DNA of 64,000 bases from Modestobacter sp. VKM Ac-2977. GTDB lineage: Bacteria > Actinomycetota > Actinomycetes > Mycobacteriales > Geodermatophilaceae. The notes below the pieces were generated by a model that saw only the letters and a program-made list of their open reading frames with translations, ran no database searches and was not told where the DNA came from. Shown here piece after piece: positions 13,193 through 43,800 of the stretch (its first letter is position 1; every line of letters begins with the position of its first letter). A program made the translations under genes and the position numbers. The stretch covers positions 1-64,000 of the forward strand of contig NZ_JAPVBQ010000001.1 of NCBI RefSeq assembly GCF_026968045.1, in the 5' to 3' direction.

Positions 13193-14221
13193 TCAGCCCC
13201 CGATGAGGTGCGCCAGCACCTGCCGGGCGCTCTCCTCGGGGCTGTACTCCCGGGTGTCGAGGGTGAGCTCGGCGTCCGTGGGCTCCTCGTAGGGGTCGCT
13301 GATCCCGGTGAAGGCGGCGATCTCCCCGCGCCGCGCCTTGGCGTAGAGCCCCTTGCGGTCCCGGGCCTCGCACTCGGCGAGCGGGGTGGCCACGTGCACC
13401 AGCACGAACGACCCCGGCCCGGCCTGCTCCTCCACGAGCCGGCGGGCGTCGGCGCGGGTCGCGGCGTAGGGGGCGATCGGGGCGCACACGGCCAGCCCGC
13501 CGTGCTTGGCGATCTGCGCGGCCACCCAGCCGATCCGGCGCACGTTGGTGTCCCGGTCGGCCTGGGAGAACCCCAGCCCGGCCGACAGGTGGGTGCGCAC
13601 CTCATCGCCGTCCAGCAGCGTGACCGTCCGGCCGGCCTCCAGGAGCAGCTCCACCAGGCGCCCGGCGATCGTGGACTTCCCGGCCCCGGACAGCCCGGTG
13701 AACATCACCACCTGGCCGCCGGTGCGCAGCGGTGCCGGGTCGATCCGGCTGCCCAGCAGCTCGGCGCCGTAGGCGGCGGCGACCTCGGCCCAGCCGGCCT
13801 CCGGCGCGTGCGCGGTCACCGGCACGGGGACGACGACCAGCTCGCGTCCCGCGGCCCACCCGGCCCAGGCCGCCGCGCCCAGCGACATGGCCGCCGAGTC
13901 CGGTGAGGTGCCGGCCGCGGGGAGCAGCACCAACAGTTGCTCGGGCAGCTCCGTCCCGTCGGCCGGTGGGCTGCCCACCCACGCCTGGGGGGCCGACCAG
14001 CCGCGCTGCACCAGCTCGGCGCGGACGACGGACGGGGCGCGCCAGCGGGGGATCTCCCGGACGGTCAGCCCGCTGTCGTCCCGGGTGGCGACCAGCACGC
14101 CCTCGGCGTCCTCCAGCTCGGCGGCCGGGGGGACGGCGGGCGCGCCGGCCACGAGGTCGAAGCCGTACCGCGCGAGTGCCGCGAGCTCGGTGTCGATCAG
14201 TCGGGCCCGCGTCTGTGCCAT
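13193..14221 (-). CDS. cysC: Adenylylsulfate (APS) kinase with unusual N-terminal domain
   Basis: A 342-residue protein, well over the usual 175-210 for CysC. Residues about 168-342 form the kinase: P-loop GLSGAGKST (176-184), LDGDEVRTHLSAGLGFS, RDTNVRRIGWVA, and the FTGISDPYEEP substrate loop. It phosphorylates APS to PAPS. Residues 1-165 are not P-loop and contain no obvious catalytic signature; in some fused enzymes an ATP-sulfurylase-like domain occupies this place, and the region here could be a diverged version. It is convergent with the membrane protein gene, separated by 3 bases. No cysD/cysN or sulfotransferase is seen in the window. Confidence 0.88.
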   Translation of the reverse strand: MAQTRARLIDTELAALARYGFDLVAGAPAVPPAAELEDAEGVLVATRDDSGLTVREIPRWRAPSVVRAELVQRGWSAPQAWVGSPPADGTELPEQLLVLLPAAGTSPDSAAMSLGAAAWAGWAAGRELVVVPVPVTAHAPEAGWAEVAAAYGAELLGSRIDPAPLRTGGQVVMFTGLSGAGKSTIAGRLVELLLEAGRTVTLLDGDEVRTHLSAGLGFSQADRDTNVRRIGWVAAQIAKHGGLAVCAPIAPYAATRADARRLVEEQAGPGSFVLVHVATPLAECEARDRKGLYAKARRGEIAAFTGISDPYEEPTDAELTLDTREYSPEESARQVLAHLIGG

Positions 14222-14305
14222 GCAGGCAGTCTGGCAAGCACCGTGCGCCCGGACCGAACCGGTCGGGACGCGACGGGTAGGGGCGTCACCCGGCCGGGTG
14301 CGCCG

Positions 14306-14473
14306 TCACATGCCGGGGCGGACGACCCCGCAGCGGCAGGCGTAGAGCGACGCACCGCTGAACGGGTCGTCACCGGTGCGCCGGTACCGGTGCAGGTGCA
14401 GGTGCGAGGGCCGGCTGCTGCCCGGCCACAGGCCGACGGTCGAGCCGGGGGGTGGCGATGCCAGGAAGCGCAC
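14306..14473 (-). CDS. Small hypothetical protein with C-terminal CxC motif
   Basis: A 55-residue frame from a GTG, reading VRFLASPPPGSTVGLW at its start and ending with SLYACRCGVVRPGM. The paired cysteines near the end and basic His-rich centre (HLHLHRYRR) look like a small zinc-binding or redox peptide. No family is assigned. Start is uncertain: an in-frame upstream start would extend it to 14557. It lies in a 755-base stretch between cysC and the PHP gene that otherwise lacks long conserved coding sequence. Confidence 0.4.
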   Translation of the reverse strand: MRFLASPPPGSTVGLWPGSSRPSHLHLHRYRRTGDDPFSGASLYACRCGVVRPGM

Positions 14474-14660
14474 CCGCCGAGTGTGGAGCCCACCGGCCCG
14501 CGGCGGAAGCGCACGGGACGTCAACAGTCGATGAACTCCGTCACTCGTCCGGGGCACCCGGACGGGGTGCCGGTCGGCCGGGTCGTCACCGACCGTGGTC
14601 GCTGACCACCCGGTACCTCCGCGACGCCCGGTCGGACGAACGCGACGGAGCTGGCCGGGA

Positions 14661-14804
14661 TCAGCGGGTAGCAGGCCCGACCCGGTCGCGCGGGGTGCGC
14701 TCGTCCGCGGCCCGCTGGGCGGCGAAGCCGGACTGCAGGGCGTCGGCGAGCGCGATGGCGGAGTCGACGGGACCGGTGACCGGAGCGTGTGCAGTACGCG
14801 TCAT
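14661..14804 (-). CDS. Small hypothetical protein (47 residues)
   Basis: A short frame with an ATG start, beginning MTRTAHAPVTGPVDSA and ending with a charged tail (ERTPRDRVGPATR). The central segment SAIALADALQSGFAAQRAAD would form an amphipathic helix. It has no recognised family. A perfect-armed palindrome lies 71-90 bases upstream of its start. Coding status is uncertain because the evidence is only codon-like composition and context. Confidence 0.3.
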   Translation of the reverse strand: MTRTAHAPVTGPVDSAIALADALQSGFAAQRAADERTPRDRVGPATR

Positions 14805-14874
14805 GGCAGAGAAGCTAGGGCTGGACTGTGGTGCAGAGAACAGCGACACACGGTCGGCGTTGGTTGCGAGTTCA

Positions 14875-14894
14875 TGACGGGTGCACACCCGTCA
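14875..14894. promoter_or_regulatory. Near-perfect palindrome, operator or terminator
   Basis: TGACGGGTG and CACCCGTCA are perfect 9-base arms separated by two bases. The site lies 83 bases downstream of the PHP gene and 71 bases upstream of the small gene at 14661-14804, both on the minus strand. It could be an operator for the small gene or a terminator hairpin for the PHP gene; there is no T-run. Confidence 0.4.
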
Positions 14895-14976
14895 CATCGG
14901 GCAGACGATCCCCCAGCGCAGCGTCCAACCAGGCGTCGGTCCTCCGGTCCCAGGTGCGGCAGCGGCCCCGTCGCGC

Positions 14977-16026
14977 TCAGCCGTGCGTGCGGGCGAGCAG
15001 CTCCTCCGCTGAGCGGGTGTTGACGACCCGGTCGGCCGGGACCCCGCACTCCACCGCCCGGGTGCAGCCGGCGTCCTGCCAGTCGAGTTGACCGGGGGCG
15101 TGGGCGTCGGTGTCGATGGCGAAGTCGCAGCCCAGCTCGACGGCCCGGCTGAGCAGCCGCCGGGGCGGGTCGAGTCGTTCGGGGCGGGAGTTGATCTCCA
15201 CCGCCGTCCCGTGCTCGACGCAGGCACGGAAGACGGCGTCGGCGTCGAACTCGCTCTCCGGCCGGGGGCGCTGGGTGCCGTTGCGCTGCTTGCGGCCGAT
15301 GACCAGCCGGCCCGTGCAGTGCCCGAGGACGTCGGTGTGCGGGTTGGCGACCGCGGCCAGCATCCGCTCGGTCATCTGGGCGCGGGGTGCCCGGAGTTCG
15401 GAGTGCACGCTCGCGACGACGACGTCCAGCCGGCCCAGCAGTTCGTCGGTCTGGTCGAGGGAGCCGTCGACGAGGATGTCGCACTCGATGCCGGTGAGGA
15501 TGCGGAAGGGCGCCAGCTCCTCGTTGAGTGCGGCGACCACGTCCAGCTGCTGCTCCAGCCGTTCGGGGGTGAGGCCGTTGGCCACGGTGAGCCGGGGGGA
15601 GTGGTCGGTCAGGGCGAGGTACTCGTGGCCGATGCTGATCGCTGCCTCGGCCATCTCCCGGATGGGGCTGCCGCCGTCGGACCAGTCGGAGTGGGCGTGC
15701 AGGTCGCCCTTGAGCGCGGCTCGCAGCGCCGCGGCGTCGTCGGCCAGCGGGGTCAGCTCGGCGTGCGCCTCCTCGAGCTTGGCCAGGTAGGCCGGCAGCT
15801 CGCCCCGGTGGGCCTCGAGGACGACCGTGGCGGTCTTGTCGCCGATGCCCTTGAGGTCGGTGAGGGTCCGGGTCGCGACCCGGCGGTCGAGCTCCGCGTC
15901 GTCCAGGGCGGCGACGACGGTGGCCGCCGTGCGGAAGGCCTGGACGCGGTAGGACGGCTCGCGGGCGCGTTCCAGGAGGAAGGCGATCCTCCGGAGCGCG
16001 CCCGCGGGCGTGAGTGCCGTGCTCAT
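14977..16026 (-). CDS. PHP-domain phosphoesterase with N-terminal helix-hairpin-helix
   Basis: A 349-residue protein. Residues 1-105 hold PolX-type helix-hairpin-helix elements (ALRRIAFLLERA, ALDDAELDRRVATRTLTDLKGIGDKTATVV). Residues about 108-349 are a PHP domain: KGDLHAHSDWSDGG, EYLALTDHSPRL, IECDILVDGSLD, VASVHSEL, EINSRPERLDPP and DTDAHAPGQLD give the expected His/Asp/Glu metal ligands. The polymerase X nucleotidyltransferase palm is missing, so this is the shorter PolX-like family annotated as a PHP-domain protein, possibly a DNA-repair or sugar-phosphate phosphoesterase. It ends 10 bases after the DoxX gene region begins on the same strand, making an operon likely. Confidence 0.87.
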   Translation of the reverse strand: MSTALTPAGALRRIAFLLERAREPSYRVQAFRTAATVVAALDDAELDRRVATRTLTDLKGIGDKTATVVLEAHRGELPAYLAKLEEAHAELTPLADDAAALRAALKGDLHAHSDWSDGGSPIREMAEAAISIGHEYLALTDHSPRLTVANGLTPERLEQQLDVVAALNEELAPFRILTGIECDILVDGSLDQTDELLGRLDVVVASVHSELRAPRAQMTERMLAAVANPHTDVLGHCTGRLVIGRKQRNGTQRPRPESEFDADAVFRACVEHGTAVEINSRPERLDPPRRLLSRAVELGCDFAIDTDAHAPGQLDWQDAGCTRAVECGVPADRVVNTRSAEELLARTHG

Positions 16027-29761: not shown

Positions 29762-29795
29762 CCTGACCACCAGAATGGCCATTGTGGTGGTCAGG
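29762..29795. terminator. Palindromic repeat family 2, copy A, acting as bidirectional terminator
   Basis: A 34-base palindrome centred between 29778 and 29779 with one mismatch: CCTGACCACCAGAATGG and its complement. It sits between the methyltransferase stop and the convergent oxidase stop, overlapping the latter. The core CCACCAGAATG recurs at 39980-39990 in copy B. Confidence 0.7.
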
Positions 29796-31077
29796 GGCGG
29801 CGGCGGAGGACCTCGCGGGTGAGCTGGTCGACGGCGGTGTGGCCGGTCAGCCCGAGCGTGAGGTCGAACTCGCCGAGCACGTCCTCCACCACCTGACGGA
29901 CGCCCTCCTCGCCGGCCACCCCCAGGCCCCAGGCGTAGGGCCGGCCCAGCAGCACCGCCCGCGCGCCCAGGGCGACGGCCACCAGCACGTCGGCGCCGCT
30001 GCGCACCCCGCTGTCGAAGAGCACCGGCACCCGGTCGGCGACGGCGTCCACCACATCGGGCAGCGCGTCCAGGGCGGCGATCGACCGGTCGACCTGCCGC
30101 CCGCCGTGGGTGCTGACCACCAGCCCGTCGACGCCCTCGTCGACCGCCCGCCGGGCGTCGTCCGGGTGTAGGACGCCCTTCAGCACGATCGGCAGCCGGG
30201 TGCGCTCGCGCAGCCAGGCGAGGTCGGCCCAGGTGATCGACGGGCGGGAGTAGATGGACAGGAAGGTCTCGACGGCGGCGCGGGGGAGCGGGGAGCGCAG
30301 GTTCTCCACCAGCGGGCCGGGCCAGGCGCGGGCCATCCCCACCAGCGCGCGGACCGCAGCGAGGTTCGGTCGCGGCTGGGGGTCCCGTGGTGCGCCGGCC
30401 GCAGCGGCCCGCTCCTCGACCAGCCGGCGGAACACCGGGTCGGAGGTGTACTGCGCGATGCCCTTGCCCAGTGCGAAGGGCAGGTGCCCGAGGTCGAGGT
30501 CGCGGGGGCGCCAGCCGAGCATCGTGGTGTCCAGGGTGACGACGACGGCGTCGCAGCCGGTGGCCTCGGCGCGGCCCAGCAGGCTCTCGACCAGCTCGTC
30601 GGACGTCGACCAGTAGAGCTGCATCCACCGCGGGCTGTCGCCCATCGCCGCCGCGGTGGTCTCCATCGGCACCGACGCCTGGTTGGAGAAGACCATCGGC
30701 ACCCCGACGGACGCCGCGGCGCGGGCGACGGCGAGGTCGCCCTCGGGGTGCACCAGCTCCAGCGCGCCCACCGGCCCGAGCAGCACGGGTGCCGGGAGCC
30801 GGCGTCCGAACAGCTCGACGGAGGTGTCCCGGCGGCTGACGTCACGCAGCACCCGGGGCACGACGGACCAGCGGTCGAACGCCGTCCGGTCGGCCCGCTG
30901 GGTGGCCTCGTCGCCGGCGCCGCCGGCGACGTAGCCGTAGGCCCGGGCGTCCAGCCGGCGCTTGGCCTCCCGGGCCAGCGCCCGGTACACGGTGGGCACC
31001 CGGGGGTGCCTGCCGTAGACCCCCGCCCGGTAGACCACGTCCTGCCGCCGCCGCCCGGTCCCTGCCGCTGAGGTCAT
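29791..31077 (-). CDS. lldD: FMN-dependent alpha-hydroxy-acid dehydrogenase (L-lactate dehydrogenase-like)
   Basis: A 428-residue TIM-barrel flavoenzyme. The N-terminus has the YVAGGAGDEATQRAD segment of the family, and the FMN/substrate site is LVVSTHGGRQVDRS with the catalytic His and Arg of the S-N/T-HGGRQ motif. LPIVLKGVLHPDDA gives the barrel strand with the catalytic Lys. LFDSGVRSGADVLVAVALGARAVLLGRP is the FMN-phosphate loop (shown here as DSGVRSG and GRP). It probably oxidises L-lactate or a related 2-hydroxy acid, passing electrons to the respiratory chain or O2. The ATG at 31077 was chosen over longer frames. Confidence 0.9.
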   Translation of the reverse strand: MTSAAGTGRRRQDVVYRAGVYGRHPRVPTVYRALAREAKRRLDARAYGYVAGGAGDEATQRADRTAFDRWSVVPRVLRDVSRRDTSVELFGRRLPAPVLLGPVGALELVHPEGDLAVARAAASVGVPMVFSNQASVPMETTAAAMGDSPRWMQLYWSTSDELVESLLGRAEATGCDAVVVTLDTTMLGWRPRDLDLGHLPFALGKGIAQYTSDPVFRRLVEERAAAAGAPRDPQPRPNLAAVRALVGMARAWPGPLVENLRSPLPRAAVETFLSIYSRPSITWADLAWLRERTRLPIVLKGVLHPDDARRAVDEGVDGLVVSTHGGRQVDRSIAALDALPDVVDAVADRVPVLFDSGVRSGADVLVAVALGARAVLLGRPYAWGLGVAGEEGVRQVVEDVLGEFDLTLGLTGHTAVDQLTREVLRRRP

Positions 31078-31152
31078 CGGCTCACCGTAGTGACCTGGAT
31101 CTCGTGCTCGGCGCCTTGGACCGGCTCCGGCGGGGGTCGCGACCGTCCACCC

Positions 31153-31187
31153 GGCGCGACCGGCGTGGGCGACACGCCGGTCGCGCC
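31153..31187. promoter_or_regulatory. Perfect 15-base-arm hairpin between divergent genes
   Basis: GGCGCGACCGGCGTG (31153-31167) and CACGCCGGTCGCGCC (31173-31187) are perfectly complementary around a 5-base loop. It lies 76 bases upstream of the oxidase start and 142 bases upstream of the surface-protein start, so it is not placed as an ordinary terminator. A dyad operator or RNA structure in one leader is possible. Confidence 0.45.
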
Positions 31188-31328
31188 ACGCCTGTGGGAC
31201 GGAAGTGACGGGAGTGGCGGACTCCCCGCCGATCGAGGCCACCGGGCATGGTGGAGGGAGTTCCTGGGCAGGACGACGGTGCGCCGCGCAGCAGTTGTCC
31301 GTCGAGCGCTGGAGAACGGGGGACCGCA

Positions 31329-32531: not shown

Positions 32532-32590
32532 GCGGGCGGCACGGCGGACGACACCGGCACGAGCACTGCGAAGGAGACGTGGACCCACCG

Positions 32591-33106
32591 ATGGACCAGC
32601 CCAGGGACCGGCTGCACGACGGCGCGCCACCTCGAGGCGTCCCCCGGGACGTGCGGGGGCTTGCGGCCGCGGGGCCGAGTGCCCCCGAGACCTGGCTGCG
32701 GATCGTCCAGGTGCACGACCGGATCACCCGGCGGGTCGACTCGGCGCTGCACCGGCAGCACGGGTTGTCGCTCACCGGCTTCGAGGTGCTGCGCCGGGTG
32801 GCCGAGTCCCCGCACGAGCACGCCTCCATGGGCGACCTCGCGGACGCGGTCGGCCTCTCCCGGCCGGGGATCACCAGCACGGTCAACCGGCTCGTCGACG
32901 ACGGACTGGTCACCCGCGAGCGACTGGACGGCGACCGGCGGCTGCTGCACGCCCGGCTGACCGACACCGGCCGGGACCGGGTCCGCGCGGCGATGTCCAC
33001 CCACGACGACCTGGTGGCGCACCTGCTCACGATGCTCGGGGACGACGCCGCCGTGGTCACCGACGCGCTCGCCCGGGTGTCCTCCGCCACTCGCCGTCCC
33101 CGCTGA
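32591..33106 (+). CDS. MarR family transcriptional regulator
   Basis: A 171-residue winged-helix protein. LSLTGFEVLRRVAESPHEHAS leads into the recognition helix (MGDLADAVGLSRPGITSTVN), and the wing RERLDGDRRLLHARLTDTG is typical of MarR proteins. They bind inverted repeats as dimers and respond to small phenolics or oxidants. ATG 32591 is chosen; GTG 32579 would leave only 2 bases between ribosome site and start. It follows the surface-protein gene and precedes the heptose operon, which it could control, but no operator is obvious. Confidence 0.85.
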   Translation: MDQPRDRLHDGAPPRGVPRDVRGLAAAGPSAPETWLRIVQVHDRITRRVDSALHRQHGLSLTGFEVLRRVAESPHEHASMGDLADAVGLSRPGITSTVNRLVDDGLVTRERLDGDRRLLHARLTDTGRDRVRAAMSTHDDLVAHLLTMLGDDAAVVTDALARVSSATRRPR

Positions 33107-33165
33107 CGCGGGCACACCCCCCGATCGGGTGAGGGACGGCCAACGGCGGGGAAACTTAAAGCCCG

Positions 33166-33171
33166 TAGTGT
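33166..33171 (+). promoter_or_regulatory. Candidate -10 element upstream of the heptose operon
   Basis: TAGTGT at 33166-33171 matches the actinobacterial TAnnnT -10 pattern and lies in an AT-richer stretch (GAAACTTAAAG at 33151-33161) 33 bases before the ATG at 33204. No clear -35 is visible 17-18 bases upstream. Confidence 0.3.
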
Positions 33172-33203
33172 TTCGGGAACGATCTTCCGGGCACGATCGG
33201 GGC

Positions 33204-34703
33204 ATGACGGGTGTCCTGCGCAACTGCACGGTCGTCGTGCCGACGATCGGTCGGCCGTCGCTCGACGTGCTCCTCGATGCCCTGGCCGCCGCCGCCGGTC
33301 CGCGGCCGGCCGAGATCGTGCTGGTCGACGACCGGCCCACCGGTGAGCCGCTGCGCCCGGAGCGCCCCGGGCTGTCCCCGGTCCGGGTGGTGCGCACCGG
33401 CGGCGGAGGTCCGGCGGTGGCCCGCAACCTCGGCTGGCGAACCGCGGGCACGGAGTGGATCGCCTTCCTGGACGACGACGTCGTCCCCGACCCCGACTGG
33501 TACGCCCGGCTCGCCGAGGACCTCGCCGCCCTGCCCGCCGACGCGGCCGGCACCCAGGGCCGGGTCCGGGTGCCGCTGCCGGCCGACCGCCGGCCCACCG
33601 ACTGGGAGCGCGGCACCGCGGGGCTGGCCACGAGCAGCTGGATCACCGCCGACCTGGCCTACCGCCGGTCCGCGCTGGCCGCGGTCGGCGGCTTCGACGA
33701 GCGCTTCCCCCGGGCCTTCCGGGAGGACTCCGACCTCGCCCTGCGGGTCATGGACACCGGCTCGACGCTGACCCGCGGCGAGCGGTGGATCACCCACCCG
33801 GTCCGGCCGACCGACCGCTGGGTGTCCGTGCGCGTGCAGGCCGGCAACGCCGACGACGTCCTCATGCGCCGGTTGCACGGGCCGACCTGGCGCGAGCGCG
33901 CCGACGCCGCCGTCGGCCGCCGTCCCCGGCACCTCGCCGTCGCCGGGGCAGCGCTGGCTGCGCTCGGGCTGGCCGCCGCGGGACGGCCGCGGGCCGCGGC
34001 GCTCGCGGCCCTGGGCTGGGCCGCCGGCACCGCCGAGTTCGCCTGGGCGCGGATCGCCCCCGGCCCGCGGGACCGCGCCGAGGTGGCCACCATGCTCGCC
34101 ACCAGTGCGCTCATCCCGCCGCTGGCCAGCTGGCACTTCCTGCGCGGCGCCGTGCAGCACCGCACCGTGACGCGGTGGCGTGGCCTGCCCGACCTGGTCC
34201 TCTTCGACCGCGACGGCACGCTGGTGCACGACGTGCCCTACAACGGCGACCCGGCGCAGGTCCGGCCGGTCGGCGGCGCCCGCGCTGCGCTGGACTCCCT
34301 CCGGGCGCGCGGGGTGCGGATCGGGCTGGTGACCAACCAGTCCGGGGTGGGCCGGGGCCTGATCACCCGGACGCAGGCCGATGCGGTCAACGCGCGCGTC
34401 GCCGAGCTGCTGGGCCCCTTCGACACCGTGCAGGTCTGCCCGCACGCCCCCGAGGACGGTTGCGACTGCCGCAAGCCGGCCCCCGGCATGGTGGAGTCCG
34501 CCTGCGCCGAGCTCGACGTCGACCCGTCCCGCGTCGTCGTCATCGGTGACATCGGTGCCGACGTCGGGGCCGCCACCGCGGCCGGTGCCGCCGCGATCCT
34601 GGTGCCCACGATGGTCACCCGCCCCGCCGAGGTCACCGCCGCGGCACACCGGGCGCCCACCCTCGTCGAGGCGGTCGAGGACGTGCTGGCAGGCGCCTGG
34701 TGA
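33204..34703 (+). CDS. Fused GT2 glycosyltransferase and GmhB-type heptose-bisphosphate phosphatase
   Basis: A 499-residue two-domain protein. Residues 1-265 are a GT2 glycosyltransferase: VVVPTIGRPSLD, VRTGGGGPAVARNLGWR and the metal-binding FLDDDVVPD (Asp near 90). A hydrophobic linker follows. Residues about 330-499 are a HAD phosphatase: FDRDGTL (nucleophile Asp near 335), TNQSGVGRGL, the zinc-binding CPHAPEDGCDC (Cys412, His414, Cys420, Cys422) and IGDIGADV. The zinc loop and NQSG are GmhB hallmarks, indicating removal of the 7-phosphate from heptose 1,7-bisphosphate. I know of no common fusion of these two. It opens a seven-gene operon. Confidence 0.88.
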   Translation: MTGVLRNCTVVVPTIGRPSLDVLLDALAAAAGPRPAEIVLVDDRPTGEPLRPERPGLSPVRVVRTGGGGPAVARNLGWRTAGTEWIAFLDDDVVPDPDWYARLAEDLAALPADAAGTQGRVRVPLPADRRPTDWERGTAGLATSSWITADLAYRRSALAAVGGFDERFPRAFREDSDLALRVMDTGSTLTRGERWITHPVRPTDRWVSVRVQAGNADDVLMRRLHGPTWRERADAAVGRRPRHLAVAGAALAALGLAAAGRPRAAALAALGWAAGTAEFAWARIAPGPRDRAEVATMLATSALIPPLASWHFLRGAVQHRTVTRWRGLPDLVLFDRDGTLVHDVPYNGDPAQVRPVGGARAALDSLRARGVRIGLVTNQSGVGRGLITRTQADAVNARVAELLGPFDTVQVCPHAPEDGCDCRKPAPGMVESACAELDVDPSRVVVIGDIGADVGAATAAGAAAILVPTMVTRPAEVTAAAHRAPTLVEAVEDVLAGAW

Positions 34704-35701
34704 CCCGCACCGTCCTGGTCGCCCGGCTGGACAACGCCGGCGACGTGCTGCTGCAGGGCCCGCTGGTGCGGGCCGTGGCCGCCGCCGCCGACCGGGTGGT
34801 CTTCCTGGCCAGCCCGCAGGGGACGGCGGCGGCCGAGCTGCTGCCCGGCGTCGACGACGTGCTGACCTGGCACTGCCCGTGGATCGACGGCTCGCCACAG
34901 CCGGTGGACGCCGAGGACATCGGCGCCCTCGCCGACCGGGTCCGTGCGCTCGGAATCGACGAGGCGGTGGTGAGCACGAGCTTCCACCAGTCACCGCTGC
35001 CGCTGGCGCTGCTGCTGCGCACCGCCGGGGTGGCGCGGATCTCCGCGATCAGCGTCGACTACCCCGGCTCGCTGCTCGACGTCCGGCACCGGGTGGAGGA
35101 CGACCTGCCCGAGCCGGAACGGGCCCTCTCGCTGGCCCGCGCGGCCGGCTTCGAGCTGCCGGCCGGCGACGACGGGCTGCTCGCCGTGCGCCGTCCACTG
35201 CCGGCGACCGCGCACGAACCGGGCTACGTCGTCCTGCACCCCGGCGCCTCCGTGCCGGCGCGGGCCTGGCCGGCCGAGCGCTGCGCGGAGGCGGTCGAGG
35301 CGCTGACCGACGCCGGCTGGCGGGTGCTGGTCACCGGCGGGCCGGGGGAGCGGGCGCTGACCGCGGCCGTCGCCGGGAGCCGCGGCGTGGACCTCGGCGG
35401 GGCCACCACGCTGGCCGAGATGGCCGCGCTGCTCGCCGGTGCGGCCGCCGTCGTCGTCGGCAACACCGGTCCGGCGCACCTCGCCGCCGCGGTCGGCACA
35501 CCCGTCGTCTCCCTCTTCTCCCCGGTCGTCCCGGCCGTGCGGTGGGCCCCCTACGGCGTGCCCACCGTCCTGCTCGGCGACCAGTCGGCCCCCTGCCGCG
35601 ACACCCGGGCGCGCGAGTGCCCGGTGCCCGGTCATCCCTGTCTGACGTCGGTGAGCCCAGCCGACGTCGTCGCCGCCGTCGACAAGGTGGTCGCCTCATG
35701 A
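34700..35701 (+). CDS. Glycosyltransferase family 9 (heptosyltransferase-like)
   Basis: A 333-residue GT-B protein overlapping the fusion gene by 4 bases. The N-terminus VLVARLDNAGDVLLQGPLVRAV is the GT9 signature (R-x-D-x-x-GD). The C-terminal donor region contains VVLHPGASVPARAWPAER, VLVTGGPGE and VVGNTGPAHLAAAVGTPVVSLF, the conserved GT9 nucleotide-heptose binding segments. GT9 enzymes use ADP-heptose as donor, fitting the surrounding heptose genes. Acceptor unknown. Confidence 0.9.
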   Translation: MTRTVLVARLDNAGDVLLQGPLVRAVAAAADRVVFLASPQGTAAAELLPGVDDVLTWHCPWIDGSPQPVDAEDIGALADRVRALGIDEAVVSTSFHQSPLPLALLLRTAGVARISAISVDYPGSLLDVRHRVEDDLPEPERALSLARAAGFELPAGDDGLLAVRRPLPATAHEPGYVVLHPGASVPARAWPAERCAEAVEALTDAGWRVLVTGGPGERALTAAVAGSRGVDLGGATTLAEMAALLAGAAAVVVGNTGPAHLAAAVGTPVVSLFSPVVPAVRWAPYGVPTVLLGDQSAPCRDTRARECPVPGHPCLTSVSPADVVAAVDKVVAS

Positions 35702-36663
35702 AGGTCCTGCTCTGGCACGTGCACGGCTCCTGGACGACGTCCTTCGTCCAGGGCACCCACGACTACCTGCTCCCGGTGACCCCGGATCGCGGGACCGACG
35801 GCCTGGGCCGCGCCCGCACCTGGGAGTGGCCGGCGTCGGCCCGCGAGGTCACCCCCGACCAGCTCCGCAACGAGGACGTCGACGTCGTGGTGCTGCAGCG
35901 CACCCGCGACCTCGAGCTGGTCCGCGAGTGGCTGGGCCGCGAGCCCGGCCGCGACCTCCCGGCCGTCTTCCTGGAGCACAACGCCCCCGACGGGGCGGTG
36001 CCGAACACCCGTCACCCGCTGGCCGAGCAGTCCGCGATCCCGATCGCGCACGTCACCCACTTCAACCAGCTCTTCTACGACAACGGCAGTGCGCCGACGA
36101 CCGTCATCGAGCACGGCATCGTCGACCCGGGCGAGCGGTACACCGGCGAGCTGGCCCGGGCCGGGGTGGTGGTCAACGAGCCGGTCCGTCGGGGCCGGTA
36201 CACCGGCGGCGACCTGCTGCCGCTGCTGTCCGCCGCCGCGCCGCTGGACGTGTTCGGCATGGGCCTGGCCGGGCTGCACGAGCGCTACGGGCTCGACCCC
36301 GACCGGGTCGGCCTGTACGACGACCCGCCGCAGGCCGCGATGCACGACGAGCTCGCCCGCCGCCGGGTCTACGTGCACCCGGTGCGCTGGACCTCGCTGG
36401 GGCTGTCGCTGCTGGAGGCGATGCACCTGGGCATGCCGGTCGTCGGGCTGGCGACCACCGAGGCGGTGGAGGCGGTGCCGGCCGAGGCGGGGGTGCTCTC
36501 CACCCGGCCCGAGCGGCTGGCCGAGGCGGTCCGGTACTTCGTCGCCGAGCCGGACGCTGCCCGGCTGGCCGGCAAGGCGGCTCGCGCCGCGGCGCTGGAG
36601 CGGTACGGCCTCGGCCGGTTCCTCGCCGACTGGGACGCTCTCCTGACGGAGGTGACGAGATGA
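35698..36663 (+). CDS. Glycosyltransferase (GT-B, GT4-like)
   Basis: A 321-residue protein whose ATG overlaps the GT9 stop. MKVLLWHVHGSWTTSFVQG and the VFLEHNAPDGAVPNTRHP section are N-terminal GT-B features. The C-terminal YVHPVRWTSLGLSLLEAMHLGMPVV contains the E-x7-like motif region of GT4. The donor-binding lobe is short, so specificity is not predictable. By position it acts on the same heptose-containing glycan. Confidence 0.85.
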   Translation: MKVLLWHVHGSWTTSFVQGTHDYLLPVTPDRGTDGLGRARTWEWPASAREVTPDQLRNEDVDVVVLQRTRDLELVREWLGREPGRDLPAVFLEHNAPDGAVPNTRHPLAEQSAIPIAHVTHFNQLFYDNGSAPTTVIEHGIVDPGERYTGELARAGVVVNEPVRRGRYTGGDLLPLLSAAAPLDVFGMGLAGLHERYGLDPDRVGLYDDPPQAAMHDELARRRVYVHPVRWTSLGLSLLEAMHLGMPVVGLATTEAVEAVPAEAGVLSTRPERLAEAVRYFVAEPDAARLAGKAARAAALERYGLGRFLADWDALLTEVTR

Positions 36664-37868
36664 GGATCGACCTGGTGAGCGAGCACGCCTCGCCGCTGGC
36701 CGCCATCGGCGGCGTCGACGCCGGCGGGCAGAACGTGCACGTGGCCGCACTCGCCGCCGGCCTGGCCCAGCGCGGGCACCAGGTCACGGTGCACACCCGC
36801 CGGGACGACGCCGAGCTGCCGGACCGGGTCACCACGGCCGACGGCTACGACGTCGCGCACGTCACCGCCGGGCCGGCCCGGGTGGTGCCCAAGGACGAGC
36901 TGCTCCAGCACATGGGCACCTTCGCCGACGTGCTGCGCGACGAGTGGTCGGCGACCCGGCCGGACGTCGTGCACGCGCACTTCTGGATGAGCGGCCTGGC
37001 CTCGGTGCAGGCCGCCTCCCGGCTCGGCATCCCGGTGCTGCAGACCTTCCACGCCCTCGGCTCGGTCAAGCGCCGGCACCAGGGCGACGCCGACACCTCC
37101 CCTGAGCAGCGGATCGACCTGGAACGCGGCCTGTGCGGCGACGTCGACCACGTGGTCGCCACCTGCAGCGACGAGGTGTTCGAGCTCCGCCGGCTCGGGC
37201 TGCCCAGCGACCGGGTGTCGATCGTGCCGTGCGGCGTGGACACCGACGAGTTCACCCCGGACGGGCCGGTCGCGCCGCGCGCCGGCCGTCCGCGGCTGCT
37301 GGTGCTGGGCCGGCTGGTCGAGCGGAAGGGCCAGGAGGACGCCGTCCGGGCGCTGGCCGCCGTCCCCGACGCCGAGCTGGTCGTCGTGGGCGGCCCGCCG
37401 ACCGACGAGCTGGACACCGACCCGGAGGTCTGCCGGCTGCGGGCCATCGCCGCGGAGCTGGGGGTCGCCGACCGGCTGGTCTTCACCGGCGCGGTGTCCC
37501 GGGCCGACGTGCCGGGCTGGATCCGCTCGGCCGACGTCGTCCTGGCCGTGCCCTGGTACGAGCCCTTCGGGATCACCCCGCTGGAGGCGATGGCCTGCGG
37601 CCGCCCGGTCGTGGCCACCGCCGTCGGCGGGCTGGTCGACACCGTCGCCGACGGCGTGACCGGTGACCTCGTCCCGCCGCGCGATCCCGCAGCCCTCGGG
37701 CAGGCGCTGGCCGCCCTGCTCGCCGACGACGAACGGCGGGCCGGCTACGGCGCCGCCGGCGTCACCCGGGCCCAGAGCCGCTACCGCTGGTCCCGGGTCG
37801 TCGCCGACACCGACGCCGTCTACCGCTCGGTGCTCTCCGCCGGGAACCCGGTGGAGGCCGCCCGATGA
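36660..37868 (+). CDS. Glycosyltransferase family 4 (MshA/sucrose synthase-like)
   Basis: A 402-residue GT4. The start MRIDLVSEHASPLAAIGGVDAGG carries the GG-x-x-x-G region, VVHAHFWMSGLASVQAA the acceptor side, LLVLGRLVERKGQEDAVRAL the donor motif and YEPFGITPLEAMACGRPVV the E-x7-E motif. Overall layout resembles MshA-type enzymes. ATGA overlap with the preceding gene. Role inferred: a step in heptose-containing glycan assembly. Confidence 0.9.
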   Translation: MRIDLVSEHASPLAAIGGVDAGGQNVHVAALAAGLAQRGHQVTVHTRRDDAELPDRVTTADGYDVAHVTAGPARVVPKDELLQHMGTFADVLRDEWSATRPDVVHAHFWMSGLASVQAASRLGIPVLQTFHALGSVKRRHQGDADTSPEQRIDLERGLCGDVDHVVATCSDEVFELRRLGLPSDRVSIVPCGVDTDEFTPDGPVAPRAGRPRLLVLGRLVERKGQEDAVRALAAVPDAELVVVGGPPTDELDTDPEVCRLRAIAAELGVADRLVFTGAVSRADVPGWIRSADVVLAVPWYEPFGITPLEAMACGRPVVATAVGGLVDTVADGVTGDLVPPRDPAALGQALAALLADDERRAGYGAAGVTRAQSRYRWSRVVADTDAVYRSVLSAGNPVEAAR

Positions 37869-38560
37869 ACCCCCTCGCTGGAAGGACCGTCATGAGCACC
37901 GCCCCGTCCTCGGACCTCGAGGTCGTCTCGCCCGACACCTGCACGCACCTCACCGGGCACGACCACGTGGCGTCGCTGAGCGCCGCGCTCCGCGGGCTCA
38001 CCGAGCAGGTCGAGACGCTGGACCGCTGGGGCCGGCTGCTCGCCGACGTGCTGACCGGGCCCTCCCGCGGCCGGCTGCTCGCCGCGGGCAACGGCGGCAG
38101 CGCGGCGCAGGCGCAGCACCTCACCGCCGAGCTGGTGGGCCGCTACCGCGCCGACCGTCCGCCGTTCTCCGCGATCTGCCTGACCGCCGAGACCTCCTCG
38201 CTCACGGCCATCGCCAACGACTACCCGGCCGACGAGCTGTTCGCCCGGCAGGTCGAGGCGCACGGCCGGGACGGCGACGTGCTGGTGCTGCTGTCCACCA
38301 GTGGCCGCAGCCCCAACGCGGTCGCCGCCGCCCGCCGTGCCCGCGAGTGCGGCATCACCGTGCTGGCGATGACCGGGCCGGCGCCGAACCCGCTGGCCGC
38401 CGTCGCGGACGAGACGGTCGCCATCGACTCGCCGTGGACGGCGACGGTGCAGGAGTGCCACCTGGTCGCGCTGCACCTGCTCTGCGCCGCCTTCGACGCC
38501 GCCGTGCTCGCCGACTCACCCCGGATCTCCACCAGCAACCACGTCGAGGTGGTCCCGTGA
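37865..38560 (+). CDS. gmhA: Sedoheptulose-7-phosphate isomerase (GmhA-like SIS protein)
   Basis: A 231-residue SIS-domain protein. The phosphosugar site LLAAGNGGSAAQAQHLTAELVGR is the GmhA signature, followed by SSLTAIANDYPADELFARQVEA, DVLVLLSTSGRSPN and the C-terminal TVQECHLVALHLLC helix with conserved Glu and His. It converts sedoheptulose 7-phosphate to D-glycero-D-manno-heptose 7-phosphate. The ATG at 37865 has GGAGG 7 bases upstream and overlaps the previous stop; an ATG at 37892 also has a ribosome site. Confidence 0.9.
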   Translation: MNPLAGRTVMSTAPSSDLEVVSPDTCTHLTGHDHVASLSAALRGLTEQVETLDRWGRLLADVLTGPSRGRLLAAGNGGSAAQAQHLTAELVGRYRADRPPFSAICLTAETSSLTAIANDYPADELFARQVEAHGRDGDVLVLLSTSGRSPNAVAAARRARECGITVLAMTGPAPNPLAAVADETVAIDSPWTATVQECHLVALHLLCAAFDAAVLADSPRISTSNHVEVVP

Positions 38561-39960
38561 CCCGCGCGGCCTCCCGGCCGGTCGTCGTGGTCGGTGATGC
38601 CCTGCTGGACGTCGACCTGGTCGGGACGGCGTCCCGGCTGACCCCCGACGCCCCGGTGCCGGTGGTGGAGGACGTCGAGACCCGCGAGCGTCCGGGCGGG
38701 GCCGCGCTGGCCGCGGTGCTGGCCGCGCGCTCCGCCGGCGGCCGGGAGGTCGTGCTGGTCACCCCGCTGGCCGACGACGAGGGCGCCGCCCGGCTGCGCG
38801 CGCTGCTCGACGGCCGGGTGCGGTTGATCGAGATCCCGGCCAGCAGCGCCACCCCGGTCAAGCAGCGGATCCGGGTCGGCGACCACTCCGTCGCCCGGCT
38901 GGACAGCGGGGGAGCGGTCTCGACCTTCGGTGCACTCCCGGCCGCCGCGGCCGAGGCGATCCGGGACGCCGCCGCCGTGCTGGTCGCCGACTACGGCCGC
39001 GGGACGACGTCGGCCCCCGACGTGCGCGCCGCGCTCTCCGCCGCCTCCGGTCCGGTGGTCTGGGACCCGCACCCTCGCGGCGCGGACCCGGTGCCCTCGG
39101 CCCGGCTGGTCACCCCGAACGGGGCGGAGGCCACCCGGGTCGCCGGGCTGGACGTGACCGGCGACGGGCTCGCCGCGGTCGGCGCCCGGGCGCAGGCGCT
39201 CATCGCGCACTGGGGGGTGGGCGCCGTCGCGATCACCCTCGGTGCCCGCGGTGCCCTGCTCTCCTACGGCGAGGGCGCACCGATGGTCGTGCCCGCCACC
39301 CCGGTCACCGGCGGCGACCCGTGCGGTGCCGGTGACTCCTTCGCCGCCGCGGTCACGGTGGCGCTCGCCGGTGGTGCGGTCACCGGCGAGGCGGTGACCT
39401 CCGCGGTGGCCTCGGCCGGGGCGTTCGTCGCCCGCGGCGGGGCCACCGCCTGGGACACGGAACCGGCCGCGGCGCCGGCCCCTGCCGCCGGCGTCGACGC
39501 ACAGGGCCCGGCGCCCCGGCTCGCGGCCCTGCTGGACCGGGTACGGGCGGCCGGCGGCACCGTCGTGGCCACCGGCGGCTGCTTCGACCTGCTGCACGCC
39601 GGGCACGTCGCCACGCTGCAGGCCGCGCGCGGGCTCGGCGACTGCCTGGTGGTCTGCATCAACTCCGACGACTCGGTGCGCCGGCTCAAGGGCCCGTCCC
39701 GTCCGCTGGTCACCGCAGCCGACCGGGCCAGGGTGCTGGAGGCCCTGGAGTTCGTGGACGCCGTCGTCGTCTTCGACGAGGACACCCCGGCGCAGGTGCT
39801 CGAGCAGGTGCGGCCCGACGTCTGGGCCAAGGGCGGCGACTACGCCGGCGCGGACCTCCCGGAGGCCGCGGTGCTGCAGCGCTGGGGCGGCCAGGCCGTC
39901 GTCCTGCCCTACCTGGACGGCCACTCGACCACCGCCCTGGTCGCACGCTCCCGCGTCTGA
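38557..39960 (+). CDS. hldE: Bifunctional heptose-7-phosphate kinase / heptose-1-phosphate adenylyltransferase (HldE-like)
   Basis: A 467-residue fusion, the standard HldE length. The N-terminal PfkB-type kinase has GDALLDVDLVGTASRLTPDAPVPVV (the HldE PDAPVPV start), PGGAALAAVLAA and the GGDPCGAGDSFAAA catalytic motif (Asp near 258). The C-terminal nucleotidyltransferase, from about 330, has TGGCFDLLHAGHVATLQ with His347 and His350 of the H-x-GH site, and INSDDSVRRLKG. It makes heptose 1,7-bisphosphate and later ADP-heptose. Its partner phosphatase is the GmhB domain at 33204. Confidence 0.93.
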   Translation: MTRAASRPVVVVGDALLDVDLVGTASRLTPDAPVPVVEDVETRERPGGAALAAVLAARSAGGREVVLVTPLADDEGAARLRALLDGRVRLIEIPASSATPVKQRIRVGDHSVARLDSGGAVSTFGALPAAAAEAIRDAAAVLVADYGRGTTSAPDVRAALSAASGPVVWDPHPRGADPVPSARLVTPNGAEATRVAGLDVTGDGLAAVGARAQALIAHWGVGAVAITLGARGALLSYGEGAPMVVPATPVTGGDPCGAGDSFAAAVTVALAGGAVTGEAVTSAVASAGAFVARGGATAWDTEPAAAPAPAAGVDAQGPAPRLAALLDRVRAAGGTVVATGGCFDLLHAGHVATLQAARGLGDCLVVCINSDDSVRRLKGPSRPLVTAADRARVLEALEFVDAVVVFDEDTPAQVLEQVRPDVWAKGGDYAGADLPEAAVLQRWGGQAVVLPYLDGHSTTALVARSRV

Positions 39961-39975
39961 TGACGGACCCCGCTG

Positions 39976-40007
39976 CTCCCCACCAGAATGACCGTTCCGG
40001 TGGGGAG
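39976..40007. repeat. Palindromic repeat family 2, copy B
   Basis: A dyad of about 32 bases centred between 39991 and 39992: CTCCCCACC at the left and GGTGGGGAG at the right are perfect, with the inner CAGAATG/CGTTCCG partially matched. Its core CCACCAGAATG matches copy A at 29767-29777. It lies between hldE and the next GT9 gene. Confidence 0.6.
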
Positions 40008-40025
40008 GACGGTCGGGAGACGGCG

Positions 40026-40937
40026 GTGGTGTTGCGGCCGTTGGGGCTCGGGGACCTGCTCACCGGGGTGCCGGCGATCCGGGGGATCCGGGCCGCCGTG
40101 CCCGAGCACCGGCTGGTGCTGGCCACCACCCGGGCGCTGGAGCCGCTGGCCGCGCTGATCGACGTCGTCGACGAGGTGCTGCCGGCCGTCGAGCTGGAGC
40201 CGCTGGACTGGGCCGGTCCACCGCCGGAGCTCGCCGTCGACCTGCACGGCAAGGGCCCGGCCTCGCACATCGTCGTCGCCGGCCTGCGCCCGCAGCGACT
40301 GCTCACCTTCGACAGCCCCGGCTACCCCGGGCCGACCTGGTACGCCGACGAGCACGAGGTGCGCCGCTGGTGCCGGCTGGTCGCCGAGGGGCTGGACGTC
40401 GACTGCGACCCGGACGCCCTGGACCTCGCCGTGCCGGACGTCGAGCCGCCGGTCCGCGACGTCGCGGTCGTGCACCCGGGGGCGGCGTTCCCGGGCCGCC
40501 GCTGGCCGGCGGAGCGGTTCGCCGCTGTGGCCCGGCACCTGGCCGCCCAGGGGCTGCAGGTCGCGATCACCGGCGGCCCGGCCGAGCGGGAGCTCGCCCT
40601 GGCCGTGGCCGCGCAGGCCGGGCTGGGGGACGGCGCCGTGCTGGCCGGCCGGACGACGTCCCTCGAACTGGCCGCCGTGGTCGCCGCCGCGCGGGTGGTG
40701 GTCTGCGGGGACACCGGGGTGGCCCACCTGGCGACCGCCTACCGCCGGCCGTCCGTGGTGCTCTTCGGCCCGGTGTCACCGGCGCTGTGGGGGCCGCCGC
40801 CTCGCGCTCAGCACGTCGTCCGCTGGCACGGCGACGGCACCGGTGACCCCTGGGGGACGACGCTGGACCCCGCCCTGGCCACGGTCACCGTCGACGAGGT
40901 CACGACAGCCCTCGACGCCCTCCTCGCCCGCACCTGA
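40026..40937 (+). CDS. Glycosyltransferase family 9 (heptosyltransferase-like)
   Basis: About 303 residues from GTG 40026, with GGGAGA 5 bases upstream. The start VVLRPLGLGDLLTGVPAIRGIR is the GT9 N-terminal motif; VVHPGAAFPGRRWPAERFAAVA, QVAITGGPAERELA and VVCGDTGVAHLATAYRRPSVVLFGP are the donor-binding elements. An ATG at 39960 overlapping the hldE stop would add 22 residues and place the palindrome inside the coding region. Second GT9 of the heptose operon, presumably adding a further heptose. Confidence 0.88.
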   Translation: MVLRPLGLGDLLTGVPAIRGIRAAVPEHRLVLATTRALEPLAALIDVVDEVLPAVELEPLDWAGPPPELAVDLHGKGPASHIVVAGLRPQRLLTFDSPGYPGPTWYADEHEVRRWCRLVAEGLDVDCDPDALDLAVPDVEPPVRDVAVVHPGAAFPGRRWPAERFAAVARHLAAQGLQVAITGGPAERELALAVAAQAGLGDGAVLAGRTTSLELAAVVAAARVVVCGDTGVAHLATAYRRPSVVLFGPVSPALWGPPPRAQHVVRWHGDGTGDPWGTTLDPALATVTVDEVTTALDALLART

Positions 40938-40942
40938 TCCGG

Positions 40943-40977
40943 CCCCTCTGCAGGGTGGGGGCAGAGGGGTCCTTCTT
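40943..40977. terminator. Terminator closing the heptose operon
   Basis: CCCCTCTGC (40943-40951) pairs with GCAGAGGGG (40961-40969), followed by TCCTTCTT. It lies between the convergent GT9 and VWA stops and probably serves both strands. Confidence 0.85.
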
Positions 40978-42638
40978 CAGCCGCGGCGGCGGATGGCGTC
41001 GAACAGCACGCCCTGCAGGTCCTCGGGGTCCAGTGCCTGGTAGGCCGCACCGCCGGTCGCCTCGCCGATCTGCTCCAGCGCGCCGAGGTCGGCGTCGGGG
41101 CCCAGCGCGATCCCGATGACCTTCACCGGGCGCTCCGGGTCGGCCTCGGCGCGCAGGGTGTCCAGCAGGGCGGGCAGCTCGATGGCCGCCGCGTCGTCGT
41201 CGTCGGTCCCGTCGGTGATGAGGACGACGCTGTTCACCGCGTTCGGGTCGTAGGCCTCCCGCGCGGCACGGACGGCGGCGAGGGTCGTGTCGTACAGCCC
41301 GGTGCCGCCGGGGGCGAGCAGGTTGGGCAGGGTGTCGAGCTGCTCGTCGACCAGCTCGCGCTGCGTCCGGCCACCGGCGTCGGCCCCGAGAGCGCGCAGC
41401 GGGGCCAGCTCGACCCAGTCGCGCTCGCCGTCGAGCTGGTAGGCGAAGCCCCAGACGCCGCCGGAGTAGGAGTCCGGCAGCAGGGTGAGTGCGCTCTTGG
41501 TGGCGTCGCGAGCCAGGGTGGCGCGGGTGCCGTCGCCGGCCGGGGCGTTCATCGAGGTGGAGACGTCGATGACGGTGAGCAGCCGGGACGGGGTGGCCAG
41601 GCTGGACAGCCGGCCGAGCAGGGCCTGCACCGCGGCGGCGTCCAGCTCCAGCGGCTCCGGCGCCTCCGCCTGCACACCGGTGCCGGGGCCGGCGCCCTCG
41701 GGCGCGGTGCCGGCGGCGTCGCGGAAGCCGGCGGCCCGGGCCTGCTCGCCGGCCGAGGCGGCGGTCAGCGCGTCGACCACGGCGTCCACGGCCGCGGAGT
41801 CCTCCTCGGCGGAGGGCAGCCGCAGCACCGGGTAGTCCAGGGACGGGGAGCCCTCGCTCGGGTAGATCGCGACGAGGGAGTCGGAGCCGGCGGCGCGGTT
41901 GGCGGCCAGCACCTCCTGCTCGCTGACCGGCACCAGCGGTGCGTCGGCCCCGTTCTCGGTGCCGGTGGCCAGTGCGTCGGCGACGGTCGGCACGTCGCCC
42001 CGCCCGGCGGCCAGCACGGCCTCGACGACGGCGTTGTCGGCGTCCTCCCCACCGCCGAGCGACTGCCGGACGGCGGCCAGCACGGACAGCCCCTCGGCGC
42101 TGGCGGCCAGGTCGGGCACGGCCAGCGGTCGGCCGGTGGTCAGGGCCTCGCCCCAGCTGGGCGCGTCGTCGGTCCAGCCCAGCTCGTCGGCGGCGGCCCG
42201 GCTGGTGGCGAGCACCAGCGGTGAGGTGGCCAGCGACCCGGCGACCTCGAGGTCGGCGCTGCTGGCGCGGGCGGCCCACAGGGAGGAGTCGGGCACCCAG
42301 ACCTGGGGCAGCGAGTCGGCGCCGAGGGAGCCCAGCGCGGCCAGGGTCTGCAGCGGCTCGGTCGCCTCGACGTCCGCCACGGCGCATGCGTCGCCACCGA
42401 GCGGCAGCGGCTCGGCCAGCAGTTCCCGCACCAGCGTGCCGAGCTCGGGGGCCACCGTCACGCGGACCGTCTCGGTCTCCTCGCAACCGGCGGCCTCTGC
42501 CGTCCCGTCGTCCGGGCCGGAGACGAACCAGGCGACGCCGGCGATGAGTGCCGCGGCGACCACGACGGCGAGCCCGGCGAGCAGGGCCGGTCGGCTGGCT
42601 GTCCCGGGCCGGGCGGGAGTACGGGCGTGCCGCCCCAT
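40977..42638 (-). CDS. Membrane-anchored substrate-binding/VWA fusion protein
   Basis: A 553-residue protein. An N-terminal signal-anchor (residues about 18-42, PALLAGLAVVVAAALIAGVAW) is followed by an extracellular solute-binding-like domain (WVPDSSLWAARAS, SPLVLATSRAAADELG, AIYPSEGSPSLDYPVL), then a von Willebrand A domain from about residue 350 (LLTVIDVSTSMNAPAGD, the D-x-S-x-S MIDAS, and LITDGTDDDDA). VWA domains bind metal and protein ligands. Partner unknown. It is convergent with the heptose operon across a shared terminator. Confidence 0.85.
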   Translation of the reverse strand: MGRHARTPARPGTASRPALLAGLAVVVAAALIAGVAWFVSGPDDGTAEAAGCEETETVRVTVAPELGTLVRELLAEPLPLGGDACAVADVEATEPLQTLAALGSLGADSLPQVWVPDSSLWAARASSADLEVAGSLATSPLVLATSRAAADELGWTDDAPSWGEALTTGRPLAVPDLAASAEGLSVLAAVRQSLGGGEDADNAVVEAVLAAGRGDVPTVADALATGTENGADAPLVPVSEQEVLAANRAAGSDSLVAIYPSEGSPSLDYPVLRLPSAEEDSAAVDAVVDALTAASAGEQARAAGFRDAAGTAPEGAGPGTGVQAEAPEPLELDAAAVQALLGRLSSLATPSRLLTVIDVSTSMNAPAGDGTRATLARDATKSALTLLPDSYSGGVWGFAYQLDGERDWVELAPLRALGADAGGRTQRELVDEQLDTLPNLLAPGGTGLYDTTLAAVRAAREAYDPNAVNSVVLITDGTDDDDAAAIELPALLDTLRAEADPERPVKVIGIALGPDADLGALEQIGEATGGAAYQALDPEDLQGVLFDAIRRRG

Positions 42639-42807
42639 CTGGGTTCTCCGTCGTGTCTGGTCCGTGCAGGTGCCGAGCGGACGTCGCGGGGCGACGCGTG
42701 CTGTCGCGTCGGTTCGGCACTCTACCCAGTTCTGGGCGACCGACGGTCGCCGATCCTGCCCGCTGCGTGCGGTTGGTGACCCTCCGTGGTGGAGATGGTG
42801 GGGCGGG

Positions 42808-43800
42808 TCAGCCGGCCTGGGCGGCGACGGCATCGCGTTGCGCGGCGAACCACGCCACGGTGCGCCGCAGGCCCTCCTCGGACGACACGCTGGGGTGCCA
42901 GTTGAGCCGCTCGGCGGCCAGCGTGGTGTCCGGGCGGCGCACCTTCGGGTCGTCGACGGGGAGGTCGATGAAGCCGACCTCCGACGCCGACCCGGTGAGC
43001 CGGACGATCCAGCGGGCCAGCTCCAGCATCGACAGCTCGTCCGGGTTGCCGATGTTCATCGGGCCGGTCTCGGAGCTGAAGGCCAGTGCCAGGATGCCGC
43101 GGACCGTGTCGTCGACGTAGCAGATGGACCGGGTCTGGGAGCCGTCGCCGGCCACGGTCAGCGGCCGGCCGGAGAGCGCCTGGCCGACGAAGGCGGGGAT
43201 GGCCCGGCCGTCGTCCGCGCGCATCCGGGGGCCGTAGGTGTTGAAGATCCGCACGATCGCGGTGTCGATGCCCTGCGAGGTCCGGTAGGCGGTGGTCAGT
43301 GCCTCGCTGAACCGCTTGGCCTCGTCGTAGACCCCGCGGGGGCCCACCGGGTTGACGTTGCCCCAGTAGTCCTCGCGCTGGGGGTGCTGCAGCGGGTCGC
43401 CGTAGACCTCGGAGGTGGAGGCCAGCAGGAAGCGGGCGCCCTTCTCCTTGGCCAGGCCGAGGGCGTGCAGGGTGCCCAGGCTGCCGACCTTGAGGGTCTC
43501 GATCGGCATCTTCAGGTAGTCCAGCGGGCTGGCCGGCGAGGCGAAGTGCAGCACCAGGTCGACCGGGCCGGGTACGTGCACGTAGTCGGTGACGTCGCAG
43601 CGGACCAGCCGGAAACCGGGGTGCTCCATCAGGTGCAGCACGTTCTGCGGGGATCCGGTCAGGAAGTTGTCCAGGCAGACCACCTCGACGCCCCGTTCGA
43701 GCAGCTGCTCGCACAGGTGCGAGCCCAGGAAGCCGGCGCCGCCGGTCACCACTGCCCGACCGATCTCCCGTGTGCTCCGTGCCGCCTCGTGCACCGCCAT
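42808..43800 (-). CDS. UDP-glucuronate decarboxylase (UXS-type SDR)
   Basis: A 330-residue extended [22 protein letters not shown] is the NAD+ motif, [22 protein letters not shown] and [18 protein letters not shown] are characteristic of UXS enzymes, and [13 protein letters not shown] carries the Y-x3-K catalytic pair. It likely converts UDP-glucuronate to UDP-xylose; the related dTDP-glucose dehydratases lack the ASPxSP segment. UDP-xylose would supply glycan synthesis at the neighbouring loci. It stands alone. Confidence 0.9.

Follow-up and report, generated by a model that had tools for sequence, protein, structure and literature searches.

A probable Geodermatophilaceae version of the actinobacterial cell wall glycan (cwg) system, with predicted heptose-donor genes, in Modestobacter

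Correspondence to the Streptomyces cwg operon

In a 64,000-nucleotide stretch of DNA from Modestobacter sp. VKM Ac-2977 (hereafter the window, meaning the whole stretch analysed), seven co-directional genes at 33204–40937 on the forward strand encode glycosyltransferases together with predicted enzymes of ADP-heptose synthesis. From its sequence, we consider it likely that this locus represents, in Geodermatophilaceae, the cwg (cell wall glycan) system of actinobacteria. Its genes match the Streptomyces cwg operon (SCO6179–6190) in the same order and, since that operon is already in print as a putative cell wall glycan operon, the system is a described one and not undescribed, as an earlier note on this DNA had proposed. 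The S. coelicolor operon comprises cwgA–L; there cwgH is listed as a putative phosphoheptose isomerase, and a bifunctional synthase/transferase is the putative product of cwgI (PMC5839063). These 12 genes were predicted to serve a cell wall glycan, are induced by vancomycin and depend in part on sigma-E (PMC6767563); cwgE has been named a putative heptosyl transferase (PMC5882110), and cwgA is activated by salt (PMC13011467).

We made the comparison with S. coelicolor through its printed gene list and a relative, Streptomyces coelicoflavus (L146), whose twelve genes encode, in order, SDR, carbamoyltransferase, GT2, HAD, GT9, GT-B, GT4, GmhA, HldE, GT9, GT2 and GT2 proteins, in agreement with that list (PMC5839063). 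Counterparts of cwgC to cwgJ occur in the window in identical order, with cwgC and cwgD fused into one gene, and the remaining Modestobacter counterparts lie apart from them, so that the set is scattered over four places on three contigs of the 4.31-Mb, 16-contig genome. The cwgA counterpart lies outside the operon, two genes downstream and in reverse orientation (42808–43800, −); the cwgB and cwgL counterparts and a cwgK candidate are on contigs 10 and 9. In L146, the frame of the second GT9 (about 14200–15876) has a long Ala/Arg/Gly-rich stretch ahead of the enzyme.

The product of 42808–43800 is 68% identical to CwgA of S. coelicoflavus. Among solved structures its best matches were four UXS1 entries (E-values of 1e-100 to 1e-101, human UXS1 at 2e-101), the next best being at 3e-36, and by sequence it is closest, among SDR enzymes, to the UDP-glucuronate decarboxylases (UDP-xylose synthases, UXS). 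CwgB, with both Pfam domains of carbamoyltransferases, is 70% identical between S. coelicoflavus and contig 10, and CwgL of S. coelicoflavus and its contig 9 counterpart share 65%. Because the GT2 gene adjoining the latter is about 45% identical to each of CwgK and CwgL, it is a weak candidate for cwgK; CwgL has a further match, at 47% identity, in a gene of contig 11. Near the cwgB counterpart on contig 10 we also noticed a gene with PMT domains, resembling protein O-mannosyltransferases (L155:12455–13906), and, immediately ahead of the cwgK/L candidates on contig 9 (L158:7782–9747), a methyltransferase-like gene and a second gene with a weak, below-cut-off match of squalene-cyclase type. The earlier interpretation, partly supported by our analysis, had missed cwgA, the unlinked cwgB and the cwgK/L candidates.

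Predicted heptose-donor enzymes

The seven genes, whose extent and content are as first described, overlap successively by 4 bp, with 1 bp at the final pair. Three of them very likely provide a D,D-heptose donor, as judged from domain calls against Pfam and NCBIfam profiles with curated cut-offs and from comparison with solved structures. CwgH (37865–38560, +) is the predicted sedoheptulose 7-phosphate isomerase GmhA, by NCBIfam, solved relatives and motifs; CwgI (38557–39960, +) is the predicted HldE, combining heptose 7-phosphate kinase and heptose 1-phosphate nucleotidyltransferase; and the GmhB-like HAD phosphatase domain (CwgD) is fused to a GT2 glycosyltransferase (CwgC) in the first gene (33204–34703, +; PF00535 and HAD models). 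Only one model naming a function was passed, TIGR02199 by the HldE nucleotidyltransferase domain (187.9 against a cut-off of 181.5 bits). Best matches for the others stayed below their cut-offs: TIGR00441 for GmhA (150 against 209), TIGR02198 for the HldE kinase (132 against 345) and PRK08942, the best named match, for the HAD domain as GmhB (118 against 178). Solved structures nevertheless agree with all three names given in the earlier note, with matches of 2e-37 to phosphoheptose isomerases for GmhA, 3e-19 to D-beta-D-heptose 7-phosphate kinase for the HldE kinase and 1e-21 to D,D-heptose 1,7-bisphosphate phosphatase for the HAD domain. Moreover, despite the low scores, the active-site motifs of all three enzymes are intact. 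In GmhA, H-x-x-[AG]-E is found in 107 of 109 loci and Q-[ED]-x-H-x4-H in 108; GAGD and HxGH of HldE are present in 101/101 loci, and the HAD zinc motif, C-x-H...C-x-CRKP, in all 71 loci tested (up to seven duplicates are included in these and the other motif counts). The HAD expressions DxDG (59/71) and TNQSG (25/71) were either too strict or describe variable motifs, and the zinc motif alone was used. These GmhA, HldE and HAD motifs hold the presumed catalytic residues. In one relative (L063, genome G055), the 20 kb examined at the locus contain HldE and the other parts and give no match for gmhA.

That the HAD domain is a phosphatase for some other substrate, the heptose 7-phosphate step being carried out elsewhere, we regard as very improbable. 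The domain passes the cut-offs of broad models only, HAD-IIIA and one for a histidinol-phosphatase domain, and falls below that for GmhB. Yet both the top-ranking named model and the nearest solved structures are those of GmhB, its zinc motif is kept in all 71 loci tested, and it lies beside GmhA and HldE in all complete loci.

The nucleotide carried by the heptose bears on a second alternative, a donor that is mainly CDP- or UDP-heptose and hence not ADP-heptose, which we judge unlikely. The motif (F/L)xxGRSTT has been tied to nucleotide promiscuity, and its Arg to use of CTP or UTP (PMC11573728). Among 105 loci, 42 have this Arg, and the nearest solved relative of the transferase domain (2e-35) is a chain named 'putative cytidylyltransferase', both of which would favour such donors. 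In contrast, HldE of the window has His at that position (GHSTT for GRSTT), as do 54 of the 105 loci (the others having Tyr in five, Gln in two and an unread residue in two), so that the published hallmark is missing; this His is also a difference from the cwg operon. Of the 54 loci with His, 49 are from members of the family, in which L064 and L066 have Arg. Since Arg is reportedly not strictly required for promiscuity (PMC11461863), the motif leaves the nucleotide question undecided.

HldD, the epimerase of the lipopolysaccharide pathway, was not found: no match over the TIGR02197 cut-off occurs in the Modestobacter genome, confirming what had been noted for the window, nor in any of the 57 genomes searched, this one included; of 14 control genomes, 2 exceed it. 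We considered whether an HldD might be present under another name and rejected this, since the best match in the genome scores 114.4 bits where the cut-off is 274.6. The SDR enzyme at 42808–43800, likewise rejected, scores 56 bits on TIGR02197 and is UXS-like instead.

Conservation and the upstream element

In 82 of the 106 distinct loci compared, the operon is complete in all eight parts (taking GT2 and HAD as two), which argues that it is more than a chance arrangement. Complete sets were found in 29/33 loci of one set and in 60/80 of another, made up of the best 80 of at least 579 candidates and thus leaning towards close relatives. Eight incomplete loci span at least 20 kb (L059, L062, L063, L081, L115, L132, L145 and L149), so some of the gaps reflect real loss, movement or divergence and not contig ends. 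The closest named relative at the locus is Modestobacter sp. VKM Ac-2982 (96% identity in CwgF). The sequence record labelled Bacillus sp. AZ43 (unverified; L093) has a cluster of Geodermatophilaceae type at about 80% identity and is therefore probably mislabelled.

HldE, at E ≤ 1e-60, is present in 40 of 59 genomes, the Modestobacter genome included: 32 of 35 in the family and 8 of 24 outside it. The three family genomes with no match are 70%, 70% and 94% complete. Across 296 Actinomycetota genomes, 30 have CwgF, used as the cluster's marker protein, 41 have the HldE transferase domain (over the cut-off in 35) and 28 have both (Fisher test 5e-27, which ignores relatedness); G071 and G256 have CwgF and no HldE domain. 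By manual reading, the two lie within 10 kb on one contig in 27 of the 28, G292 being the exception. Within the genus, 22 of 23 genomes have a close CwgB, and the one without it is 72% complete. The survey of CwgB covered the genus and 16 other genomes of the order, three of which (G041, G046 and G048) have HldE together with a close CwgB and eleven neither, while G049 has HldE with only distant carbamoyltransferases and G042 CwgB with no HldE.

This distribution also bears on whether the product is instead a small natural compound with heptose in it, as for septacidin in Streptomyces. ADP-heptose enzymes are said, in the title of a 2018 study by Tang, to have a role in septacidin, and use of heptose derived from sedoheptulose 7-phosphate is common to the septacidin and hygromycin B pathways of Streptomyces and, as predicted, to the window. 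The assignment of actinobacterial ADP-heptose enzymes to septacidin is in print (PMC11461863) and favours such a role. However, those are natural-product clusters and the window holds a family-wide glycosyltransferase operon: HldE has the distribution given above and conserved neighbours, the cluster encodes five glycosyltransferase domains and, in its seven genes and the two downstream, no typical secondary-metabolite enzyme, and the Streptomyces counterpart is controlled by cell-envelope stress. We therefore find a natural product distinctly unlikely.

A conserved 20-bp element, ACTTMAAGCCCGTAGTGTTT (33154–33173, +), lies 30 bp upstream of the first start codon. Of the 92 loci that could be tested for it, 49 belong to the family, and 47 of these (40 of 42 distinct ones) have it with 0–2 mismatches, L064 and L066 being the two that lack it; none of the 43 loci outside the family has it, the best match there having 8 mismatches. 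At up to 3 mismatches it has a single copy in the genome, and 100 shuffles of the window gave no match. Its distance to the start codon shifts out of frame between loci and the element is therefore non-coding; a probable function, from its position and conservation, is that of an operator or part of a promoter. The gene of a MarR-family protein (32579–33106, +), considered as a possible regulator of the operon, adjoins it in most family loci, but the element is retained in three loci (L086, L091 and L098) where no MarR gene is nearby. In having its own 20-bp element, the window form differs from the cwg operon, and a crude search pattern found no sigma-E-like site before its first gene.

Between the operon and cwgA, 40977–42833 (−) encodes a 618-residue protein with no Pfam or NCBIfam match, kept in most family loci at an identity below that of the operon; by eye, its DVSTSM stretch resembles a von Willebrand A metal site. 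A role in the glycan was considered for this protein, for an FMN-dependent dehydrogenase (29791–31242) and for branched-chain amino-acid transporter genes, and was set aside, no link to glycans being seen for any of these neighbours.

Glycosyltransferases and the predicted envelope glycan

With the GT2 domain counted, the cluster has five glycosyltransferase domains and not the four first reported. Of 107 loci, 58 have GT2 and HAD in one gene and 32 in two, with neither arrangement assigned in 17 (51 fused and 32 separate among distinct loci), and the fusion is seen outside Geodermatophilaceae too; within the family, L092 shows two separate genes, for which an error in its sequence may be responsible. 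A membrane-anchored GT2 was not supported, as no 19-residue stretch in the GT2 part exceeds 1.5 on the Kyte–Doolittle scale. CwgF (35698–36663, +; Pfam and predicted structure) is a GT-B glycosyltransferase whose predicted model (pLDDT 90, pTM 0.88) has a GT4-like GT-B fold resembling sucrose-phosphate synthase, PimB' and BshA at 12–15% identity. For CwgG (36660–37868, +), a GT4 glycosyltransferase by Pfam, NCBIfam and solved relatives, the nearest of these relatives are sucrose-phosphate synthase and MshA. The modelled folds and relatives do not fix the donor or acceptor of either enzyme.

The two GT9 proteins, CwgE (34700–35701, +; PF01075) and CwgJ (39960–40937, +; Pfam and motif), have best matches below NCBIfam cut-offs and probably differ in their jobs. 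In aligned GT9 proteins of solved structure, the motif D-[TS]-G-x-x-H begins with Asp. CwgJ keeps D-T-G-x-x-H, with Asp in 96/96 loci, and is the best candidate heptosyltransferase. CwgE has Asn in place of this Asp, as found in 101 of 108 loci (Asp in one, no match in six). The earlier statement that the GT9s use the ADP-heptose donor seems likely for the second and possible for the first.

Taken together with the cwg literature, these glycosyltransferases lead us to propose the use of heptose in an envelope glycan, and our best reading, drawn from gene content, is a glycan with D,D-heptose and possibly xylose and a carbamoyl group. Given that no HldD was found, the D,D-heptose donor would be used as such; CwgJ, and perhaps also CwgE, would transfer heptose onto a glycan whose assembly further involves the GT2 domain, both GT-B enzymes and the pair of GT2 proteins encoded elsewhere, with UDP-xylose supplied by CwgA and a carbamoyl group added by CwgB. 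The glycan would be located in the cell envelope. What the sequences establish directly is the gene content, orthology, motifs and linkage and the absence of HldD, whereas all enzyme activities, the donors and acceptors used, the assignment of the unlinked genes to the system and the place and structure of the glycan are inferences. As in the lipopolysaccharide inner-core pathway (GmhA, HldE, GmhB and HldD, with WaaC/WaaF), there are GmhA, HldE and GmhB-like enzymes and two GT9s, but HldD is lacking, the GmhB-like domain is fused to GT2, the GT9s score far under the WaaC/WaaF cut-offs and the host family is Gram-positive, its members having been described as Gram-stain-positive (PMC8602919, PMC12453565).

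Several points weigh against this reading. Most enzyme names stay below curated cut-offs, CwgE deviates from the GT9 donor-site motif, the assignment of cwgK is weak, and the cluster contains no exporter, polymerase or ligase. Searches with a loose, crude consensus found no sigma-E-like promoter ahead of the operon (160 bp) or of cwgA (300 bp); since this pattern occurs 94 times across the window, a match would have carried little meaning, and those seen in other loci are near-identical recurrences that may fall within the last part of the gene upstream. Finally, 13 of the 41 genomes with the HldE domain have no CwgF, and heptose donors therefore have other uses as well.

Tentatively, and with more doubt than confidence, the envelope glycan may be extended to an old Actinomycetota module comparable to the lipopolysaccharide inner core, in which a xylosylated, O-carbamoylated D,D-heptose oligosaccharide would be carried, with no need of HldD, on a monoderm envelope from Streptomyces to other classes, and which most Geodermatophilaceae would have placed under a regulator of their own through the 20-bp operator.

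The locus belongs to a known but poorly understood system, to which it adds a few new testable details. A 2022 paper by Tang is said, by its title, to survey actinobacterial NDP-heptose synthetases; our literature search found no structure of the cwg product and no report on heptose in Geodermatophilaceae. The cwg product is still termed a putative cell wall glycan, and the comparison offers a testable composition for it, namely D,D-heptose, xylose and a carbamoyl group, as well as a natural variant, in Modestobacter, with dispersed genes. The activated seven-carbon sugar expected from the cluster is best known from Gram-negative lipopolysaccharide. Since ALPK1, a receptor of vertebrates, has ADP-, CDP- and UDP-heptose as agonists (PMC11573728), monoderm producers of such sugars would broaden what it could meet.

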